Positions 44,611 through 55,632 of a DNA stretch of 55,893 nucleotides are shown one piece after another. How positions within the stretch are numbered: the stretch's first letter is position 1; every line of letters begins with the position of its first letter. The position numbers and the translations under genes are program-made. Source of the stretch: Opitutaceae bacterium (GTDB taxonomy: Bacteria > Verrucomicrobiota > Verrucomicrobiia > Opitutales > Opitutaceae); assembly GCA_016794625.1 (NCBI GenBank), contig JAEUGY010000076.1, positions 1 through 55,893 on the forward strand, written 5' to 3'. The notes beneath the pieces were generated by a model. That model worked only from the letters and a program-made list of their open reading frames with translations. It was not told the origin of the DNA and made no database searches.

Positions 44611-47166
44611 ATGGATGCCTCGACTTTTCTCCGGTCAGCCTGCCGGTGGGTGCTGGCGCTTGGTCTGACCGGGTTGCCGCTGTCCCTGCGGGCGCTCGAA
44701 GCCACCGCCCCGGTCGTGGCCACCGCGCTGCCTCCCGGGGAAATCCTGCAGGAACTGCACGCCTTGCAACAGCGAGGCCGGGTGCTGTACGTCGCAGCTC
44801 ACCCGGACGACGAAAACACCCGCCTGCTCGCCACGTTTGCCAAGGGCCGGGGCTACCTGACGGGATACCTGTCGCTGACGCGCGGGGATGGCGGCCAAAA
44901 CCTGATCGGACCGGAGCTGCGCGATCAGCTGGGCGTGATCCGCACGCAGGAACTGCTCGCGGCGCGGCGAATCGACGGCGCCATCCAGTTCTTCACGCGA
45001 GCCAATGACTTCGGTTTCTCCAAGCACCCCAACGAGACCTTCCGGATTTGGGACCGGACGCAGATTCTGTCCGACGTGGTCCGCGTGATCCGGACGTTCC
45101 GTCCTCAGGTGTTGATCACGCGCTTTTCGCCCGAGCCGGGCACCACGCATGGGCATCACACGGCCTCGGCCCAGCTTGCACTGGAGGCCTTCCAAAAGGC
45201 CGGGGATCCCTCGGCCTTCCCGGAGCAACTGGCCGACGGTCGGCTGCTTCCGTGGTCTCCCACCCGCGTCCTTTGGAACTCGTTCCCGGCTGCGTTTCGC
45301 GGCGGTAATCGTAAAGCCGGTGACACCGCCCCCGCCACGCTCCAGATGGATTCCGGGGTCTACAACCCGCTCCTGGGTGAGTCATTCGGCGAAATTGCGG
45401 CCCGCAGCCGGACCCAGCACAAGAGCCAGGGATTCGGTACGCTGGCAACCCGCGGCACCAACGCCGAATACTTCCAGGTGCTGGCCGGAGCCCCCGCCTC
45501 CCGGGATCCCTTCGATGGTGTGGACCTTTCCTGGACGAGCCTGCCGGAGGGACCCGCCTTGTTGACGGAGATCGAAACGATCTTCCGCGCCTTCGATCCC
45601 CGTCAACCCGCCGCGAGCGTGCCCGCCCTGCTGGCACTGCGCCGCCGGCTGCCGGCCACTCCCGATGGACCGGGCAACCGGGAACTGTGGGAAAAGCGAA
45701 ACCAGGTGGATCGCGTGGTGGCGGCCTGTCTGGGTCTGCATCTCGGCACGAGCGCGCCCCGGGCCGAGGTCGTCCCGGGCGAATCGCTCGCGCTGAAGGC
45801 GACGGCCGTGGTCCGCGCCGCCCCTTCCGATCTCGCGATCCGGTGGGTCGAAAGTCGTTTCCCCGTCACCGGCACCACCCTCGCCGGTCCCGGCTTGCTG
45901 ACCGTGAACCGCGTGTCCGAAGCCAGTGGCACCGCCCTGCTCCCTGCCGGCACGCCGCCTTCGACGCCCTATTGGCTGCGCGAGCCGGGCACGGAAGGCG
46001 TCTTCCGCGTCGACGACTCCGCCCTGATCGGTCGGCCGGAAAATCCTCCCGTTTTCCCGGTCGAACACCACCTGGAGATCGGCGGGCAATCCTTCACGTT
46101 TCTGGACCGCGCGGTGGAGATCATCGACGATCCGGTCCGGGGTGAGATTCGCCGGCCGTTGCAGGTCATTTCTCCGGTTTCGCTGCAGTTTCCGCAGGAC
46201 TTGGAGCTCTTCGCCCCAGGATCGCAGCGCACGGTGGCGGTCGAGGTGACCGCGGCGCGGGGGGATCTCGAGGGCGCACTCCTCCTCGCCACCCCGGACG
46301 GATGGACTGCCTTGCCGGCATCGCAAAACTTCAAGCTCGCACAGGCCGGCGCCCGGACGCGCCTGCTCTTCACCGTCACCGCTCCGGCCTCCACGGGCTC
46401 GGCCCAGCTCGGCGCCGTCGCCCGGGTGGCGGGCCAGACCTTTTTGACGGGACGGGTCGATCTGCGCTACGAGCACATTCCCAGCCAGCTGCTGCAGCCA
46501 CGGGCCCAGGCCCGCGTCGTCAGTCTCGATCTCGCCGTGCGCGCCCGGTCCGTGGGCTATCTGCCCGGGGCGGGGGATCTTGTCGCTGAAGGGCTGGTGC
46601 GCATGGGCTGCCAGGTCACCACACTCGGGGCTGGCGACCTGACGGCGGAACGGCTGGCCGGCTTCGACGCCATCGTGCTCGGTGTCCGCGCTCTCAATAC
46701 ACGCCCGGAGCTGGTGCCGCTCCTGCCCGCCCTCTTTGCCTATGCGGAGCGGGGCGGCACGGTGGTCATGCAATACAACACGACGGCGGATCTGCTCACG
46801 GACCGGCTCGCCCCGTATCCGCTCAAGATCTCCCGCGACCGCGTGACCGATGAGTCCGCCCCCGTCACCCTGCTGGCTCCAAACCATCCCGCGCTGACCA
46901 CCCCCAACCGGATCACCTCGGCCGATTTCGACGGATGGGTCCAGGAGCGGGGTCTGTATTTCCCGAACGAGTGGGACCCCCGCTTCACTCCGCTGCTGGC
47001 CAGCGCCGACGCCGGCGAGCCTCCGCGGCAGGGTTCGCTGCTGGTCGCCCGGCATGGACAGGGGCACTTTGTCTACACGGGCCTGTCGTTCTTCCGCGAA
47101 CTGCCAGCCGGAGTGCCCGGAGCCTACCGTCTCTTCGCCAACCTCGTCTCGCTCAGCCGTCCATGA
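44611..47166 (+). CDS. Large PIG-L/LmbE-family deacetylase with C-terminal amidotransferase-like domain
   Basis: The 851-residue protein has an N-terminal hydrophobic signal (about 10-28), so it is probably exported. The LmbE domain (about 55-290) has zinc motif AAHPDDE with His64, Asp66 and Asp67, and the second zinc ligand in HGHHTAS (His180-His183). The middle is a beta-rich region (about 390-630). The C-terminal 200 residues (FDAIVLGVRALNT, ERGGTVVMQYNTT, then GQGHFVYTGLSFFREL) look like a class I amidotransferase/ThuA-like fold. PIG-L enzymes remove acetyl groups from amino sugars. The stop codon overlaps the start of the next small gene. The substrate is unknown. Confidence 0.88.
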   Translation: MDASTFLRSACRWVLALGLTGLPLSLRALEATAPVVATALPPGEILQELHALQQRGRVLYVAAHPDDENTRLLATFAKGRGYLTGYLSLTRGDGGQNLIGPELRDQLGVIRTQELLAARRIDGAIQFFTRANDFGFSKHPNETFRIWDRTQILSDVVRVIRTFRPQVLITRFSPEPGTTHGHHTASAQLALEAFQKAGDPSAFPEQLADGRLLPWSPTRVLWNSFPAAFRGGNRKAGDTAPATLQMDSGVYNPLLGESFGEIAARSRTQHKSQGFGTLATRGTNAEYFQVLAGAPASRDPFDGVDLSWTSLPEGPALLTEIETIFRAFDPRQPAASVPALLALRRRLPATPDGPGNRELWEKRNQVDRVVAACLGLHLGTSAPRAEVVPGESLALKATAVVRAAPSDLAIRWVESRFPVTGTTLAGPGLLTVNRVSEASGTALLPAGTPPSTPYWLREPGTEGVFRVDDSALIGRPENPPVFPVEHHLEIGGQSFTFLDRAVEIIDDPVRGEIRRPLQVISPVSLQFPQDLELFAPGSQRTVAVEVTAARGDLEGALLLATPDGWTALPASQNFKLAQAGARTRLLFTVTAPASTGSAQLGAVARVAGQTFLTGRVDLRYEHIPSQLLQPRAQARVVSLDLAVRARSVGYLPGAGDLVAEGLVRMGCQVTTLGAGDLTAERLAGFDAIVLGVRALNTRPELVPLLPALFAYAERGGTVVMQYNTTADLLTDRLAPYPLKISRDRVTDESAPVTLLAPNHPALTTPNRITSADFDGWVQERGLYFPNEWDPRFTPLLASADAGEPPRQGSLLVARHGQGHFVYTGLSFFRELPAGVPGAYRLFANLVSLSRP

Positions 47167-47315
47167 AGGCTCCCACCCAGACCCCGCCACCGCCTCCGGA
47201 CGAAGCCCCCGATGTTCCCGGCCTGCGTTCCTGGGGCGGGGTTTATCGGGCCGTGATCATCCTCTTCGTGCTCATGGTGGGGCTGCTGGCCCTGCTGCCG
47301 GTCGTCTTCTCATGA
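47163..47315 (+). CDS. Small single-span membrane protein (50 aa) ahead of the symporter
   Basis: The 50-residue product begins MKAPTQTPPPPPDEAPDVPG and has one membrane helix near its C-terminus (VYRAVIILFVLMVGLLALLPV). Its ATG overlaps the stop of the PIG-L gene by four bases, and its own TGA overlaps the ATG of the symporter gene by the same pattern. This exact coupling on both sides supports a real gene. It is likely a small accessory subunit of the symporter, by analogy with small proteins that precede SSS transporters. The family is not named. Confidence 0.75.
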   Translation: MKAPTQTPPPPPDEAPDVPGLRSWGGVYRAVIILFVLMVGLLALLPVVFS

Positions 47316-49033
47316 GCCCTCTCGACTACGGTGTACTGGTCGCCACGATGCTGGGCATCGCGTTCTACGGGATGTGGAAAACCCGGGGCCAGCGGACATT
47401 TCAAGATTACGTCAAAGGTGAGTCCCGGGTCAGTTGGGGCACCATCGGGCTCGGTGTCATGGCCACGCAGGCCAGCGCCATCACCTTCCTTTCCACGCCG
47501 GGCCAGGGTTTTGAAAGTGGTCTGGGGTTCGTTCAGAATTACTTCGGGATGCCGTTCGCCCTCATCGTCGTCGCCGCGTTGTTCCTGCCGTTCTATCAGC
47601 GGCTCAAGGTCCTGACCGCCTACGAATACCTGGGGCGGCGGTTCGATGGCAAAACCCGGCTGCTCGGCGCCTGTCTCTTCCTGCTGCAGCGCGGACTCGC
47701 CTCGGGCATCACCATCTACGCCCCGGCCATCGTACTCTCGACGGTGTTCGGGTGGAACCTCGATCTGACCATCCTCGCCACCGGCGCGCTGGCCATTGTT
47801 TACACCGTCTCCGGCGGCAACACCGCGGTCAGCATCACGCAGAAGTACCAGATGCTCGTGATCTTCGCCGGCATGGCGACGGCCTTCATCATTATGCTGC
47901 TGCGCCTGCCGGCCGGGGTGTCGACGGTCGACGCACTGCACATCGCGGGAGGGTTCGAGAAACTCAACGCGGTCAATTTCTCCTTCGACCTCAACGAGCG
48001 CTACACGCTCTGGTCGGGGATCTTCGGGGGCTTTTTTCTCTCGCTCTCGTACTTCGGCACGGACCAGTCCCAGGTCGGTCGCTACCTGTCGGGCACGTCC
48101 CTGCGCGAGAGCCGGCTGGGGTTGATGTTCAACGCCGTATTCAAGATTCCCATGCAGGCGTTCATCCTGCTGCTGGGGGTGCTGCTGTTTGTCTTCTACC
48201 AGTTCGCCCCGGCCCCCGTCTTTTTCGACCGCGCCACGTGGCGGCAGCACGTCGCGGCTCCGGGCGGGGAGGCCCTGCAGGCGATAGAAGCTCGCTACAC
48301 GGTGCTGGTCGGGGAGAAGCGGGCTGCGCTCGAAGCCTGGATGAAGGCCCGCGCCGATGGCGCTTCGGCGGCGGAAATCGCCGCCGCCCGGGACGTCGTG
48401 CGTGCGGCTCACACTCGCAGCGAGGCGGTGCGCAAGGAGGCCAAGGAGGCCCTGCGGGCCGCTGATCCGGGGGTCAAGGTGAAGGACTCGGACTACGTCT
48501 TCATCACCTTCATTCTCGAGCAACTGCCGGTCGGTGTCGTCGGTCTGCTCATCGCCGTGATCTTTGCCGCCGCCCTCAGCTCGGTCGCCGCGGAGTTGAG
48601 CGCCCTGGGCTCGACCACGGTGGTCGATCTTTACCGGCATGTGTTCCGGCCCACCTCCGGGGATGGTCATGGGGTGGTGATGTCGAAGGTGTTCACCGCG
48701 TTCTGGGGGCTGGTCGCGATCAGCTTCGCCCTCTTTGCCCGTCTGGCCGAGAATTTGATCGAGGCCGTCAACATCCTCGGTTCGCTCTTTTACGGGGTCG
48801 TGCTGGGGCTTTTCCTCGTCGCCTTCCTGCTGCGCCGGGTGGGCGGCACCGCGGTGTTCACGGGCGCCCTGCTTTCCCAGGCCACGGTCCTGGTCTGCTA
48901 CTTCACCTTGGACCGCGTGGGCTACCTCTGGTACAACCTCATCGGCTGCGCGCTTTGCGTGCTCACGAGCGCCCTGCTCCAGCCGCTCATCGGTGGTCGT
49001 TCGCCTGGCCGGCCGGCCTCGCCTGTCGCATGA
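47312..49033 (+). CDS. Sodium:solute symporter (SSS family)
   Basis: The product has 573 residues from the ATG at 47312, with about 13 membrane helices. SSS features include GESRVSWGTIGLGVMATQASAITFLSTPGQGF, shown as the first helices with the sodium-site Ser/Thr cluster, YEYLGRRFD, and LSYFGTDQSQVGRYLSG, the family signature. An unusual hydrophilic insert of about 85 residues (about 306-390), rich in Ala, Glu and Arg and predicted helical, lies before TM9. SSS transporters import sugars, sialic acid, amino acids or vitamins with sodium; the substrate here is unknown. Its stop overlaps the start of the BshC-like gene. Confidence 0.92.
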   Translation: MSPLDYGVLVATMLGIAFYGMWKTRGQRTFQDYVKGESRVSWGTIGLGVMATQASAITFLSTPGQGFESGLGFVQNYFGMPFALIVVAALFLPFYQRLKVLTAYEYLGRRFDGKTRLLGACLFLLQRGLASGITIYAPAIVLSTVFGWNLDLTILATGALAIVYTVSGGNTAVSITQKYQMLVIFAGMATAFIIMLLRLPAGVSTVDALHIAGGFEKLNAVNFSFDLNERYTLWSGIFGGFFLSLSYFGTDQSQVGRYLSGTSLRESRLGLMFNAVFKIPMQAFILLLGVLLFVFYQFAPAPVFFDRATWRQHVAAPGGEALQAIEARYTVLVGEKRAALEAWMKARADGASAAEIAAARDVVRAAHTRSEAVRKEAKEALRAADPGVKVKDSDYVFITFILEQLPVGVVGLLIAVIFAAALSSVAAELSALGSTTVVDLYRHVFRPTSGDGHGVVMSKVFTAFWGLVAISFALFARLAENLIEAVNILGSLFYGVVLGLFLVAFLLRRVGGTAVFTGALLSQATVLVCYFTLDRVGYLWYNLIGCALCVLTSALLQPLIGGRSPGRPASPVA

Positions 49034-49806
49034 GCTCCTCCCCGATCATCGCCTTCGGACAACAGCCGTGCGGCATTTTTCCGCGACGCTTCCTTTACGC
49101 CAAGATTGCCACCGCCCGTCGGCTGCGTGCGGAGATGGGCGGCGAAATCGTCTTCTTTTACCACGACAGCGACCACGATCCGCGGGAAACCCAGACGGGG
49201 CTGCGCCACCGGACGACCGACGCGGTGCAATGGTTCAACTTTACCTTCGAGAACAAGGTCCAGCGGAAGTATTCACCGCTCCACCTCAAACGGATCCCGG
49301 CCGGCTGGCGGGAACAAACCGTACGGCAGCTGCCGGCGTTCGTCAGTCCCGCCGCCGTGCAGGCGGTGCGGGCCTGCTCCGCCGGTTTTGTCGCCGACTT
49401 CTGCCTCGACGTCATGCGGAGCCAGGGGTTGCTCGAAGGCGTGCGGGTGGTGCGGTCGAGCGACCCGGCCGTGCGCACCGCCGCCTGCGATCTGGCCGAC
49501 TTTTTTGTCGATGTGCCGCACGAGGGGGAAATCGTGCGGGCGCGGTGTCATGAGGGAAAACTGAGCCTGCATGAGGGCGGCAGTTCATGGCTCGCCCTGC
49601 CCGACACGACATGGACCAAGGCCCAGGTCAGTCCGTCCCGCGACAGCCGGCTGCGGTGGATGCAATCGGTGCTGCACTGCACCCACTACATTGCCGGCGC
49701 GGGGGAACAGGCCTACCTGAACCGGGACGACGCCCCGGAGATCACATTCGTCAATCGTGACACCATCGACCGTTCCGACGAAGCCTATGCCGACTTCCCC
49801 GTCTGA
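49030..49806 (+). CDS. Compact BshC-like protein (candidate bacillithiol cysteine-adding enzyme)
   Basis: The product has 258 residues from the ATG at 49030, whose TGA overlap couples it to the symporter gene. Three BshC signatures are present in order. The first is GQQ at 10-12, followed by a Tyr23/Lys25 pair as in the LYT-x-x-K segment. The second is DHD at 48-50 (HDSDHDPRE). The third is IAGAGE at 221-226, preceded by an Arg...Met-Gln segment (RLRWMQSVL), where BshC has R-x-L-M-Q ahead of IAGPGE. Normal BshC proteins have about 520-540 residues; the region between the motifs is shortened and the N-terminal and C-terminal coiled-coil parts are missing. BshC adds cysteine to GlcN-malate. The location directly before bshB1 and bshA supports this role. 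Activity is inferred. Confidence 0.74.
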   Translation: MSSSPIIAFGQQPCGIFPRRFLYAKIATARRLRAEMGGEIVFFYHDSDHDPRETQTGLRHRTTDAVQWFNFTFENKVQRKYSPLHLKRIPAGWREQTVRQLPAFVSPAAVQAVRACSAGFVADFCLDVMRSQGLLEGVRVVRSSDPAVRTAACDLADFFVDVPHEGEIVRARCHEGKLSLHEGGSSWLALPDTTWTKAQVSPSRDSRLRWMQSVLHCTHYIAGAGEQAYLNRDDAPEITFVNRDTIDRSDEAYADFPV

Positions 49807-50515
49807 GCCTCCGCGCCTGCTGGCCATTGGCGCCCATCCCGACGACATCGAGTTCGGTGTCGGGGGCATCATCGCCCACCACACGCAATCCGGCGGCAGC
49901 GCTCATTTCGTCCTTTGTTCCCGAGGCGAATCGGCCACCCACGGCACACCCGCGGAACGGGAGTCTGAAGCCATCGAGGCCGCCCGGTTGCTCGGCGCCT
50001 CGCTTGAGTTTGTCGATCTGGGTGGAGACGCCCACCTCGCCCCCGGCGTGCCGCACGTGCTCACCCTCGCCGCCCTCCTTCGGCGGCATCGTCCCCGCTG
50101 GGTCCTGGCGCCGACCACCCAGACGGGCCAGCATCCCGACCACACCGTGGTCGGCGGACTGGTCCGCGACGCCGCCCGTCTGGCCCGTTACGGGGGCGTG
50201 CACGAGCTGCGCGAACTCCCTCCCCACACGATTGACCAGCTGTTGCATTATGCGGTCGGGCCGGAAGGCGAACCCGATGGAGACGCGCCGGTCTGGTTCG
50301 ACGTGTCCGAACCGGCCGTGCTCGCCGCCTGGACCGCCGCCATGAAAACCCACGCCACCCAGGCGCGTTCCCGTGACTACGTCGAGTTACAACTCACTCG
50401 CGCCCGGCTGCTTGGCCTGCGTGCCGGCACGTCTCACGCCCAGGCCCTCTACCCCGCGGAGCCGATGGTGATGACGTCCATGGAACAACTGGGACGCGGA
50501 GCGCGTCGTTTCTGA
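49787..50515 (+). CDS. bshB1: Bacillithiol biosynthesis deacetylase BshB1
   Basis: The product has 242 residues from the ATG at 49787, which overlaps the BshC-like gene by 20 bp; an ATG at 49757 is also in frame. This PIG-L enzyme removes acetate from GlcNAc-malate, the second step of bacillithiol synthesis. The zinc motif is AIGAHPDDIEFGVGG near the start, the second zinc His lies in GQHPDHTVVGG, and the BshB1-type stretch GTPAERESEAIEAARLLG is present. It is distinct from the large PIG-L protein at the operon start. bshA follows after 41 bp. Confidence 0.94.
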   Translation: MPTSPSEPPRLLAIGAHPDDIEFGVGGIIAHHTQSGGSAHFVLCSRGESATHGTPAERESEAIEAARLLGASLEFVDLGGDAHLAPGVPHVLTLAALLRRHRPRWVLAPTTQTGQHPDHTVVGGLVRDAARLARYGGVHELRELPPHTIDQLLHYAVGPEGEPDGDAPVWFDVSEPAVLAAWTAAMKTHATQARSRDYVELQLTRARLLGLRAGTSHAQALYPAEPMVMTSMEQLGRGARRF

Positions 50516-50556
50516 TTCCTGTGCAGCGCCTTTCCCTTTCCCGTACCTGACCTGGC

Positions 50557-51732
50557 ATGACTGAACCCTCCCTCCGCATCGGCATCGCCTGTTACCCGTC
50601 GGTGGGAGGCAGCGGCATTCTCGCCACCGCCCTTGGGGTCGACCTGGCTCGACGCGGACACGAGGTGCACTTCATCTCCTACGAGCGACCGTTCCGGCTG
50701 CCCCCCGACGAGCCGCGCGTCACCTTTCACCCGGTGCACATTCAGGGCTACGGGCTGTTCAAGCACCCCGACTACACCCTGCCCCTCGCCGTGAAAATGA
50801 CCGAGGTGGTGCGGGAACGCCGGCTGCACATCCTGCATGCCCACTACGCCGTGCCCCACGCCACCGCGGCCGTGCTCGCGCGCGACTGGCTGCCGGAGGA
50901 GCTCCGTCCCGGGGTGGTGGCCACGCTGCATGGTACGGACACGACGCTGCTCGGGCGCGATCCCGGCTACGCCCCCGCCATCCGCCACGCGCTGGGCAAG
51001 GTCGACGCCATCACCACGGTATCGGAATTTCTGCGTCGCGACACCGCCCGGCTGGTCGACATCGACCACCCCATCCAGGTCATCCCAAACTTCTTCACGC
51101 CGCGCCGCCCGCACCGCAGCCGCCGCGCCGTGCGCGCCGAGCTGGGACTGTGCGACCGCGAGGCCATGATCCTGCACATGTCGAATCTGCGGCCGGTCAA
51201 ACGCATCGACCTACTGCTCGAGGCCACGGCCCGCATCCGACCGCGCGAATCGTTCCGGCTCGTGGTCATCGCCGGCGGCGACTTCGCCCCCTTCCGCGAA
51301 CAGGTGCGGCGCCTCGGCCTCGAGGACCGCGTCGTCGTGCGGGAGAACGTGAGCCTGATCGAGGACTACGTCGCCGCCGCCGACCTCAGCCTCATCACCT
51401 CGGAGTCGGAGAGCTTCTGCCTCAGTATCCTTGAGGCCATGACGTTTGGCTGTCCCACCGTCGCCACCGCCGTCGGCGGCATCCCCGAGGTGATCGAACA
51501 CGGAAAGTCCGGGCTGCTCGTGCCTTTCGGCGATGCAGAGGGACTGGCCCGCGAGGTCGAGACGCTCATCGCCAGCCCCCGCCTGCGCACCACCCTCGGT
51601 CGCGCCGCGCAGACCCGCGCCCGCGACCTCTTCACCGCCGACCGGGTCGTGCCCGCCTACGTCGACCTCTACCACCGCGTCCGCGCCCACCGCGACGCCA
51701 TCGCCGCCCACCCCACCCTCCCCCAGATCTAG
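50557..51732 (+). CDS. bshA: N-acetyl-alpha-D-glucosaminyl L-malate synthase BshA
   Basis: The 391-residue GT-B glycosyltransferase (GT4) begins with the BshA-type IGIACYPSVGGSGILATALG. It continues with GHEVHFISYERPFRL, LHAHYAVPHATAAVLA, TLHGTDTTLLG and the C-terminal donor site ESFCLSILEAMTFGCPTVAT, including the E-x7-E motif. It joins GlcNAc from UDP-GlcNAc to L-malate, the first step of bacillithiol synthesis. As the last gene of the operon it is followed by a hairpin without a T-run and a repeat island. The order here is bshC-like, bshB1, bshA. Confidence 0.95.
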   Translation: MTEPSLRIGIACYPSVGGSGILATALGVDLARRGHEVHFISYERPFRLPPDEPRVTFHPVHIQGYGLFKHPDYTLPLAVKMTEVVRERRLHILHAHYAVPHATAAVLARDWLPEELRPGVVATLHGTDTTLLGRDPGYAPAIRHALGKVDAITTVSEFLRRDTARLVDIDHPIQVIPNFFTPRRPHRSRRAVRAELGLCDREAMILHMSNLRPVKRIDLLLEATARIRPRESFRLVVIAGGDFAPFREQVRRLGLEDRVVVRENVSLIEDYVAAADLSLITSESESFCLSILEAMTFGCPTVATAVGGIPEVIEHGKSGLLVPFGDAEGLAREVETLIASPRLRTTLGRAAQTRARDLFTADRVVPAYVDLYHRVRAHRDAIAAHPTLPQI

Positions 51733-51939: not shown

Positions 51940-52000
51940 CTTCAGCATTAAAAGTTAAGCGTTCGGCGTTCAGCGTTCCCCTCTTCGTTCAGCGTTCCCC
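51940..52000 (+). repeat. Heptamer array (GTTCAGC type)
   Basis: Six phased 7-bp units of the CTTCAGC/GTTCGGC/GTTCAGC kind run to 51981. After a 5-bp interruption (TCTTC) two more units follow. The interruption breaks the phase once. Confidence 0.8.
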
Positions 52001-52030
52001 TCGTACACCCTTCCTTCCTTCCTTCTCATT

Positions 52031-52056
52031 GTAGGGCTGGCCCTAGCGGCCACGCC
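52031..52056 (+). repeat. Repeat B, copy 2
   Basis: Matches 12793-12818 except for one base (GGCCCTA here, GGCCCTC there). It is followed directly by the TTCACCGC hairpin. Confidence 0.87.
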
Positions 52057-52076
52057 TTCACCGCGTGAGCGGTGAA
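52057..52076. repeat. Perfect hairpin TTCACCGC-GTGA-GCGGTGAA
   Basis: Eight-base arms with a four-base loop. A shorter relative, CACCGC-TCC-GCGGTG, lies in the island at about 12857-12871, in the same order after repeat B. There is no T-run, so it is not a typical terminator. Confidence 0.75.
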
Positions 52077-52080
52077 ATTT

Positions 52081-52129
52081 GAAGGGCGAAGAGTGAACGA
52101 CGAGAAGTCCGCAGTCAGAAATCAGCCGT
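52081..52129 (+). repeat. Heptamer array (GAAGGGC grading into CAGCCGT)
   Basis: Seven phased units begin as GAAGGGC and GAAGAGT and drift into CAGAAAT and CAGCCGT while keeping the 7-bp period. The drift suggests an old array. Confidence 0.6.
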
Positions 52130-52175
52130 CAGTGTCCGAGAACCGGATAGTATATCTTGGTAGCACCCTTCCGCA

Positions 52176-52231
52176 CTTCAGCGTTCCGCGTTAAGAGTTC
52201 AGCGTTCAGCGTTCCGCGTTCCGCGGTCCCC
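52176..52231 (+). repeat. Heptamer array (GTTCAGC/GTTCCGC type, 8 units)
   Basis: Eight consecutive 7-bp units, including two GTTCAGC and three GTTCCGC. It ends 8 bp before the stop of the aldo/keto reductase gene. Confidence 0.85.
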
Positions 52232-54116: not shown

Positions 54117-54158
54117 CTTCAGCGTTAAAAGTGGAGCGTTCCGCGTTCAGCGTTCCCT
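54117..54158 (+). repeat. Heptamer array (GTTCAGC type, 6 units), first of a pair
   Basis: Six units of 7 bp. Nearly identical to the array at 54222-54263; the two start exactly 105 bp apart, which is fifteen 7-bp steps. Confidence 0.85.
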
Positions 54159-54221
54159 CCTCTCTCTTCCCGTCGGTGCCTTCGGGCTCCCCCCGAGTCT
54201 CCATCCGGTCGGTCCGAACCC

Positions 54222-54263
54222 CTTCAGCGTTAGAAGTTGAGCGTTCCGCGTTCAGCGTTCCTC
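54222..54263 (+). repeat. Heptamer array (GTTCAGC type, 6 units), second of a pair
   Basis: Differs from the array at 54117-54158 at only a few bases in the same unit order, so the two look like one duplicated block. The spacer 54103-54342 holds no gene and little else besides this pair. Confidence 0.85.
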
Positions 54264-54342: not shown

Positions 54343-55632
54343 ATGCGTGTCATCCTCACGTCACACGGTTCAACGGGCGACATCTACCCGCTGATCGGCC
54401 TCGCAGTCGCGCTGCAGCGCGCCGGACACTCCGTGCGCTTCGCGACCATCCCGCACTACCGGGACGAGGTGCAGGCGGCAGGAGTTGAGTTCTATCCGCT
54501 CTGTCCCAACTGGGAACAGGCGGACCTGAGCTACTGGATGGGTCGTCTCCAAAAAATCCGCACGCCGATCTACCAGCTCCGCGAGCTCTATGTGGGCGCA
54601 CGCGCGCACATTCCGGAGATGCTCATCCGCATGGACGCCGCCCTCGCCGACGCCGATGTCCTCGTTTCCAGCTACCTCTTCCCCATGAACAAGGGGCTGG
54701 CGGACCGCCGCGGCGTTCCCTTCGCGACCTTTGCGTTCGCTCCCCACGTCATTCCCTCACCGGATTATCCACCGGAGAACCTGCCTTCGCCCGCCTGGCT
54801 GGGTCGGACCGTGCGACGCGCGTGGAACCGATGGTTGTGGAAATCCGCCAATGCCGTGGTTGACCGCGTGATCAACTCGGCCGTCGCCGAGCCGCTGCGA
54901 CAGGCGCGCCTGCCCAAAGTCCGCAACTTTTTCTCCAAACCCGCCGACTGCGTGCTGGTAGGGGTGTCCGATCTGCTCAAGCCTGTACACGCGGAGATCG
55001 ACCCGCGCTTTCATTTCACCGGGTATTGTCGCTGGCAGGCGCCCGAGAGTGCCTCCCTCGAAACCGAACTTCGAGCCTTCACGCGCGGTGAACAGGTTCC
55101 CGTGCTCACCTTTGGCAGCATGGTCTATGACAATCCCGGCGAAACCATGGAGCGCTTCGTGCGCGCCTGGCCCCGCGATCGCAAGATCATCGTCCAGCGC
55201 GGCTGGGCCCAGTTTCCAGCGCTCGGTGACGGCAGTCAAATTCGCGTCATCGGCAAGGTATCGCACGACCAGCTGTTTCGTCACGCCTCGGCCGTGATAC
55301 ATCATGGCGGCGCCGGCACCACCGCCAGCGCCCTGCATGCGGGAGTACCCCAGATCGTGGTTCCCCACATCGGCGACCAGACCTTTTTCGGCGGCGAGGT
55401 CGAACGTCTCGGCTGCGGATTCCGCCTCTCCAAACGCCGCTGGCCCGAACACCTCGCTGCCGCGCTCGATCGCCTCCTCGCCGCGCCCCAGCACGCCACC
55501 AGTGCCCTCCGCGTCCGCCAGCACCTCGCCAGCGAAAACGGACCCGCCCAAGCCATCGCCGTGCTCGAGCGCTTTGTGGACCTGGCCGGTTCCGATCACC
55601 CGAGGGGAGCCACCCTGAGCCCCGCGCGCTGA
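54343..55632 (+). CDS. UGT-type glycosyltransferase (GT1)
   Basis: The 429-residue GT-B protein starts MRVILTSHGSTGDIYPLIGLA, the acceptor-domain signature of sterol/macrolide glucosyltransferases. The donor-binding motif is ASAVIHHGGAGTTASAL followed by GVPQIVVPHIGDQTFFG near residues 315-350. Family members transfer a sugar from a nucleotide donor to lipids, sterols, hopanoids or antibiotics. No acceptor-synthesis gene is adjacent, so the acceptor is open. No signal peptide; the last 20 residues are a disordered tail. It is followed by 185 bp without a gene and then tRNA-Asp. Confidence 0.9.
   Translation: MRVILTSHGSTGDIYPLIGLAVALQRAGHSVRFATIPHYRDEVQAAGVEFYPLCPNWEQADLSYWMGRLQKIRTPIYQLRELYVGARAHIPEMLIRMDAALADADVLVSSYLFPMNKGLADRRGVPFATFAFAPHVIPSPDYPPENLPSPAWLGRTVRRAWNRWLWKSANAVVDRVINSAVAEPLRQARLPKVRNFFSKPADCVLVGVSDLLKPVHAEIDPRFHFTGYCRWQAPESASLETELRAFTRGEQVPVLTFGSMVYDNPGETMERFVRAWPRDRKIIVQRGWAQFPALGDGSQIRVIGKVSHDQLFRHASAVIHHGGAGTTASALHAGVPQIVVPHIGDQTFFGGEVERLGCGFRLSKRRWPEHLAAALDRLLAAPQHATSALRVRQHLASENGPAQAIAVLERFVDLAGSDHPRGATLSPAR

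Follow-up and report, generated by a model that had tools for sequence, protein, structure and literature searches.

In a 55,893-nucleotide stretch of DNA from an Opitutaceae bacterium (GenBank assembly GCA_016794625.1, contig JAEUGY010000076.1, positions 1 to 55,893 of the forward strand; hereafter the window), the gene at positions 49030–49806 of the + strand encodes a BshC-like protein of 258 residues, recognized by its open reading frame (ORF), its motifs and its predicted fold. It is followed by a bshB-like gene (49787–50515, +) and by bshA (50557–51732, +), and we consider it very probable that this half-size gene is a minimal, divergent BshC whose Rossmann core adds cysteine to glucosaminyl-malate. 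In the proposed pathway, BshA would join UDP-N-acetylglucosamine (UDP-GlcNAc) and malate into GlcNAc-malate, BshB would deacetylate GlcNAc-malate to glucosaminyl-malate (GlcN-malate), and the half-size protein would add Cys to GlcN-malate, giving bacillithiol or a close relative. We take it as most likely that the Rossmann core by itself suffices for the BshC step in the half-size protein, a reading in which we infer the catalysis, the substrate and the chemical mechanism, and this Opitutales lineage appears to make a protective glutathione-like thiol via a last enzyme of half the usual length.

The half-size ORF runs intact from ATG to TGA, and the three BshC signatures that the initial annotation had read in its 258 residues are all there in order, GQQ from residue 10, DHD from 48 and IAGAGE from 221, as is the Arg...Met-Gln segment that it had placed before the last of them (Arg207 and Met211-Gln212). 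None of 200,000 shuffled versions of the window protein contained the series GQQ...DHD...[IV]AGAGE. Comparison with seven BshC proteins (four from the phylum and those of Bacillus, Paenibacillus and Deinococcus; six complete) gave a spaced pattern of GQQ-x12-K, DHDxxE and R-x12-[YAF]xxGxxExxY, which was written after both alignments had been seen and which matched 7/7 BshC, 91/91 half-size proteins and 0/200,000 such shuffled versions. In the window gene, these elements correspond to codons 10–25 (49057–49104, +; GQQPCGIFPRRFLYAK), where the GQQ-x12-K spacing equals that of all seven BshC, to codons 48–53 (49171–49188, +; DHDPRE), and to codons 207–229 (49648–49716, +), which carry the C-terminal core motif R...Y-IAGAGE-xx-Y of BshC. 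The Gln ahead of this last motif is off register by one residue between the half-size family and BshC. Conservation was high in an alignment of 13 half-size sequences, and in the 91 distinct half-size proteins 65 positions were conserved at 98% or more, including C14, C125, C217 and H219, which were invariant in 91/91. Three of these are family-specific: Cys217 and His219 lie in the C-terminal motif and Cys14 lies in the GQQ motif, whereas the seven BshC have Gly at the position of C14, Ala at that of H219 and no Cys at that of C217.

The strongest single test of BshC likeness is the predicted structure. The AlphaFold2 model of the window protein (predicted local distance difference test score, pLDDT, 95.0; predicted template modelling score, pTM, 0.91) was compared by Foldseek with the PDB, which gave 885 matches at E ≤ 10 and a single one at E ≤ 0.001, namely 4WBD, a citrate- and ADP-containing structure of B. 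subtilis BshC (E = 5.6e-10, probability 1.00, template modelling (TM) score 0.64 by query length, root-mean-square deviation (rmsd) 6.0, 14% identity). Next in rank came the class I tRNA synthetases GluRS, GlnRS and TyrRS at E values of at least 4e-3, and neither MshC nor CysRS was among the 50 matches listed. The model thus predicts a Rossmann-like BshC core fold for the half-size protein; a fold unlike this core was one of two findings that the initial annotation had named as speaking against its proposal, and the model instead matched 4WBD best by a wide margin. ATP-dependent aminoacyl activation is the logic common to MshC and class I tRNA synthetases. By analogy with these enzymes, the half-size protein may activate cysteine with ATP and then transfer it to the amine, and the predicted fold suggests that Cys and ATP would be bound in the manner of a class I synthetase.

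Profile searches added further links to BshC. In the Pfam scan, PF10079 matched 6 of the 13 half-size members (best E = 7.4e-4), and in the whole-genome scans it fell within three half-size genes (E = 6e-4 in G354 and 0.009 in G289 and G373). Alignment of the half-size family to the seven BshC by hhalign matched residues 6–230 to the core of BshC and brought the motifs into register (E = 3.2e-4); with 91 sequences the E value was 0.0014 and the score 33.0, compared to a maximum of 22.5 for 100 column shuffles and 13.7 for the reversed alignment.

The half-size gene is not a cut-down pseudogene, because it overlaps its neighbours at both ends, has 91 family members of similar length and shows low ratios of nonsynonymous to synonymous substitution rates (dN/dS). 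Its ATG overlaps the stop codon of the preceding symporter gene (ATGA at 49030–49033), and the start of bshB falls within its 3′ end with an overlap of 20 bases. The 91 distinct members, that of the window included, were 249–259 residues long as extracted, their sequence rows being trimmed to the match ends, and of 13 genes read to their own stop, 12 encoded 256–259 residues and one (L003) 267. The dN/dS values of the window gene against five relatives were 0.06–0.18, and dS exceeded 1 in four of these comparisons. It is therefore scarcely credible that the gene is a truncated bshC in decay or an artefact of sequencing or assembly, a view that its short length might favour together with two of the 80 loci of relatives on genome contigs (the best 80 of 322 were kept), one with an in-frame stop in the match range (L049) and one with an irregular, longer match of 843 bases (L092); family lengths, dN/dS and gene overlaps contradict it, and the coiled-coil domain of BshC, PF24850, did not exceed its cut-off in any of 87 genomes of the order. 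The same count of 0/87, beside one sub-threshold match in the bsh-negative genome G012, led us to discard a split BshC with its coiled coil encoded elsewhere.

The genetic partnership with bshA and bshB was consistent across loci. According to the initial annotation, the half-size gene stood directly before bshB1 and bshA; the gene order was confirmed, and so was bshA, which scored 388.9 bits with TIGR03999 against an equivalog cut-off of 273.7, but the label bshB1 held only in part. The bshB-like gene, with its ATG at 49787, encodes a PIG-L deacetylase of 242 residues (PF02585, E = 1e-21; family scans used the frame 49790–50512, which leaves out the initial Met), and its best NCBIfam model was indeed BshB1 (TIGR04001), at 113.3 bits and thus below the cut-off of 182.5, so that by sequence the label is likely. 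On genome contigs, bshB lay directly downstream of the half-size gene in 79/80 loci, the exception being L030, whose sequence stops after a further 417 bases, and bshA was in place in all 78 loci with room for it. Both genes were present at all 13 loci of the order sample (bshB 13/13, bshA 13/13), and the 24 loci of the phylum sample had bshB in 22 and bshA in 24; some of the loci counted are one genome fetched twice. At two loci (L110 and L120) the half-size gene led straight into bshA with no adjacent bshB, and the deacetylase of these genomes may be located elsewhere or replaced.

We then counted the genes in 87 genomes of the order and in 387 genomes of the phylum with a completeness of at least 80%, two samples that overlap and whose genomes share ancestry. 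A full-length half-size gene was found in 13/87 genomes of the order (52–100% identity, window included), and BshA exceeded its cut-off in the same 13, whereas none of the 74 others had a full-length half-size gene; PF10079 BshC was found in 0/87 at E ≤ 0.01. Fragments of the half-size gene at contig ends occurred in G017 (50% complete) and G062, and weak matches in G024 (E = 0.009) and G056 (E = 0.004) were left out of the counts. Since six families (f1, f4, f5, f8, f11 and f21) each contained both positive and negative genomes, the half-size and bsh genes seem to appear and disappear together. In the phylum sample, BshA exceeded the cut-off in 28/387 genomes, 25 with the half-size gene and three others (G127, G201 and G383), and PF10079 exceeded its cut-off in exactly these three, in frames of 524–527 residues. 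No genome had both the half-size and the full-length form, and none over the BshA cut-off had neither; four BshA matches under the curated cut-off (G236, G284, G338 and G341) were left out of the counts, and sub-cut-off PF10079 matches in G275, G292 and G419 look like chance.

The window assembly itself (6.4 Mb, 95% complete) had no PF10079 BshC at E ≤ 10, on which grounds a full-length bshC elsewhere in this genome, the second finding that the initial annotation had named as adverse, was rejected. The closest named relative of the window protein among the matches listed, at 91% identity, came from a metagenome-assembled genome of Opitutaceae. The half-size protein had no match in PHROGs, its relatives were found neither on plasmids nor on the viral contigs searched, and a full-length BshC query had no match on viral contigs. 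In two f52 genomes, an ORF resembling S-adenosylmethionine (SAM) methyltransferases by eye lies directly before the full-length bshC (L123:738–1496 and L124:699–1496), and from its position alone it could be a bacillithiol N-methyltransferase of the NmbA type.

This distribution bears on whether the half-size protein might be an accessory or regulatory paralogue, with an unrelated, unrecognized cysteine ligase finishing the pathway. Such a paralogue would be expected to coexist with full-length BshC somewhere, which it did in none of the 387 genomes; it was present in every sampled genome that exceeded the BshA cut-off without having full-length BshC, with one match per bsh-positive genome save for the contig-end fragment in G062. 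The idea gains some room from the fact that the role of the half-size protein is read from sequence and a model, and that, by the account of a 2015 review (PMC4360819), ligation by BshC itself had still to be demonstrated in vitro, and yet we regard it as very improbable. The proposal made from position and motifs in the initial annotation, a BshC-like minimal enzyme, was on the contrary strengthened by the fold, by the co-occurrence with BshA and by the mutual exclusion with full-length BshC, its enzymatic role remaining a presumed one.

Several results weigh against a minimal BshC. The window protein had no Pfam or NCBIfam match at E ≤ 10, and the half-size proteins stayed under the curated PF10079 cut-off of 27 bits, the best score in the genome scans being 20.1 bits. 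In the Pfam scan of 13 members, the unrelated Imm7 reached 4.4e-4 on one of them, better than the best PF10079 match, so that single E values of this size are no proof. The hhalign probability was low (39%, and 17% with 91 sequences), phmmer and the 13-sequence profile found no BshC among PDB sequences and returned unrelated proteins only, the best half-size E value in an hmmsearch with a profile of the seven BshC was 0.049, the rest being interspersed with chance frames, and in the opposite direction the half-size profile gave E values of at least 4.7 on the seven BshC. A TM score of 0.64 with an rmsd of 6.0 means that in the model the core agrees and the remainder differs. Scoring in the genome scans was confined to the top first-look candidates (for BshA at most 19 per genome in the order and 4 in the phylum, for the half-size profile 6 in the phylum), and a missed gene is possible. 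Bacillithiol recycling enzymes were not found in the order, neither BrxA/B (PF06491, 0/87 genomes at E ≤ 1e-5) nor YpdA (TIGR04018, 0/87 at E ≤ 1e-60). By sequence, the link between half-size proteins and BshC is borderline, in the twilight zone, and because small profiles gave no significant link, our claim of homology relies jointly on the fold, the register of the motifs, PF10079 and hhalign.

BrxA/B and YpdA are dispensable for bacillithiol membership, as other reductases could serve in their place; with neither found, the operon may make either bacillithiol, maintained by such other reductases, or a related thiol. This negative result in the 87 genomes also fits a different substrate, that is, a BshC-related ligase for another amino acid or acceptor, with a GlcN-malate derivative other than bacillithiol as the product of the operon. 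So do the invariant C14, C217 and H219 (91/91) where the seven BshC have Gly, a residue other than Cys, and Ala, the BshB score under the BshB1 cut-off, and the loci L110 and L120 without an adjoining bshB; against these stand the BshA score over the equivalog cut-off, the BshC core motifs retained in 91/91, and the substitution by full-length BshC in the three other BshA genomes, and we judge a different substrate to be unlikely. We consider it fairly unlikely that the half-size family forms a distinct class of cysteine ligase and is more than a shortened BshC, with the cysteine pocket rebuilt around Cys14, Cys217 and His219 and with neither the coiled coil nor the second nucleotide pocket of BshC. 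CysRS and MshC have a zinc site, and by analogy Cys14, Cys217 and His219 would perhaps form a metal-bound thiolate site in such a ligase; its product, a bacillithiol variant, may be recycled by other reductases. Glutathione in place of a bacillithiol-type thiol was rejected, as the window genome had no match to glutathione synthase (PF02955) at E ≤ 1e-10. PF02955 matched 14/87 genomes of the order, three of them with the bsh operon (G033, G049 and G070; 57.6–63.3 bits), and only one match was high (G008, 177 bits); the other thirteen may be different ATP-grasp enzymes.

Upstream of the half-size gene, three further ORFs are linked to it in series by ATGA stop-start overlaps: a PIG-L-family protein of 851 residues with an apparent signal peptide by eye (44611–47166, +; PF02585, E = 4.5e-16), a possible single-span membrane protein of 50 residues, also recognized by eye, with such an overlap at either end (47163–47315, +), and a sodium:solute symporter (SSF) with a probable start at 47312 (47312–49033, +; PF00474, E = 6e-31; TIGR00813, 197 bits; family scans used the frame 47336–49030). 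The symporter and the PIG-L gene were conserved neighbours; among loci with room, the former lay upstream in 71/76 genome-contig, 8/10 order and 23/24 phylum loci, and the latter in 62/69 genome-contig loci. The three genes, from 44611 to 49033, could form a set for breakdown and uptake of conjugates of the same thiol. The 851-residue protein showed a weak similarity to the mycothiol-conjugate amidase Mca (58 bits, far under the cut-off). Elsewhere in the window, a short intergenic word, AACGCTGAACGC, and its variants were clustered (51959–52220, 54136–54259 and 18654), with 12 matches at no more than one mismatch against 0.38 expected, and a gene at 54343–55632 encodes a glycosyltransferase resembling antibiotic-modifying MGT enzymes at scores well under their cut-offs (113 of 800 bits for Rgt).

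From an operon with all three genes, a bacillithiol-type thiol is predicted for the Opitutales genomes in which it occurs. According to a 2018 paper (PMC6282198), no low-molecular-weight thiol had been documented or predicted for Verrucomicrobia. The survey in that paper accepted BshC homologues at 30% identity, an E value of 1e-20 and similar length (PMC6282198), and a 2025 survey at 25% identity, an E value of 1e-20, 80% coverage and similar length (PMC12719100); because these filters require similar length and an E value of 1e-20, both surveys would exclude the half-size form. We found no mention of a half-size BshC in the accessible portions of the open-access literature, supplementary tables aside, and nothing in that literature that joined bacillithiol with Opitut- names. 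If the half-size protein is active, a natural core-only BshC reveals which half of the enzyme is dispensable and offers a smaller BshC-type protein for assays and crystallography.

Compared to standard BshC (YllA; PF10079 and PF24850; 4WBD), the half-size protein is defined by what is lost around a retained core. The six complete BshC are 520–554 residues long versus 258; the initial annotation had given about 520–540 residues for standard BshC. GQQ lies at residues 84–96 in the six complete proteins and at 10 in the half-size protein, and DHD is separated from the Arg by 184–210 residues in the seven BshC and by 159 here. The half-size protein ends 32 residues past the Glu of GxxE, whereas BshC continues for 178–186 more, including the coiled-coil domain, and it thus has neither the N-terminal extension of about 80 residues, nor part of the middle, nor the C-terminal coiled-coil half. 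In 4WBD the coiled-coil domain is tied to dimerization, according to the 2015 review (PMC4360819). With that half lost, the half-size protein would be a monomer, or a dimer formed in another way. It further differs from the seven BshC in its invariant Cys14, Cys217 and His219, and from BshC in that its gene shares one operon with bshB and bshA. As in BshC, GQQ-x12-K, DHDxxE and R...GxxExxY follow in the same order on the predicted core fold, and the partnership with BshA and BshB leaves it the last missing step of the pathway. Because it departs from the standard in curated score, length and coiled coil and agrees in core fold, motifs and genetic context, we place it in a new half-size class of presumed BshC-like function, outside standard membership. 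With MshC and the class I tRNA synthetases, the model has in common the class I Rossmann-type catalytic fold, the synthetases being far weaker structural matches than BshC (E of at least 4e-3 versus 5.6e-10).

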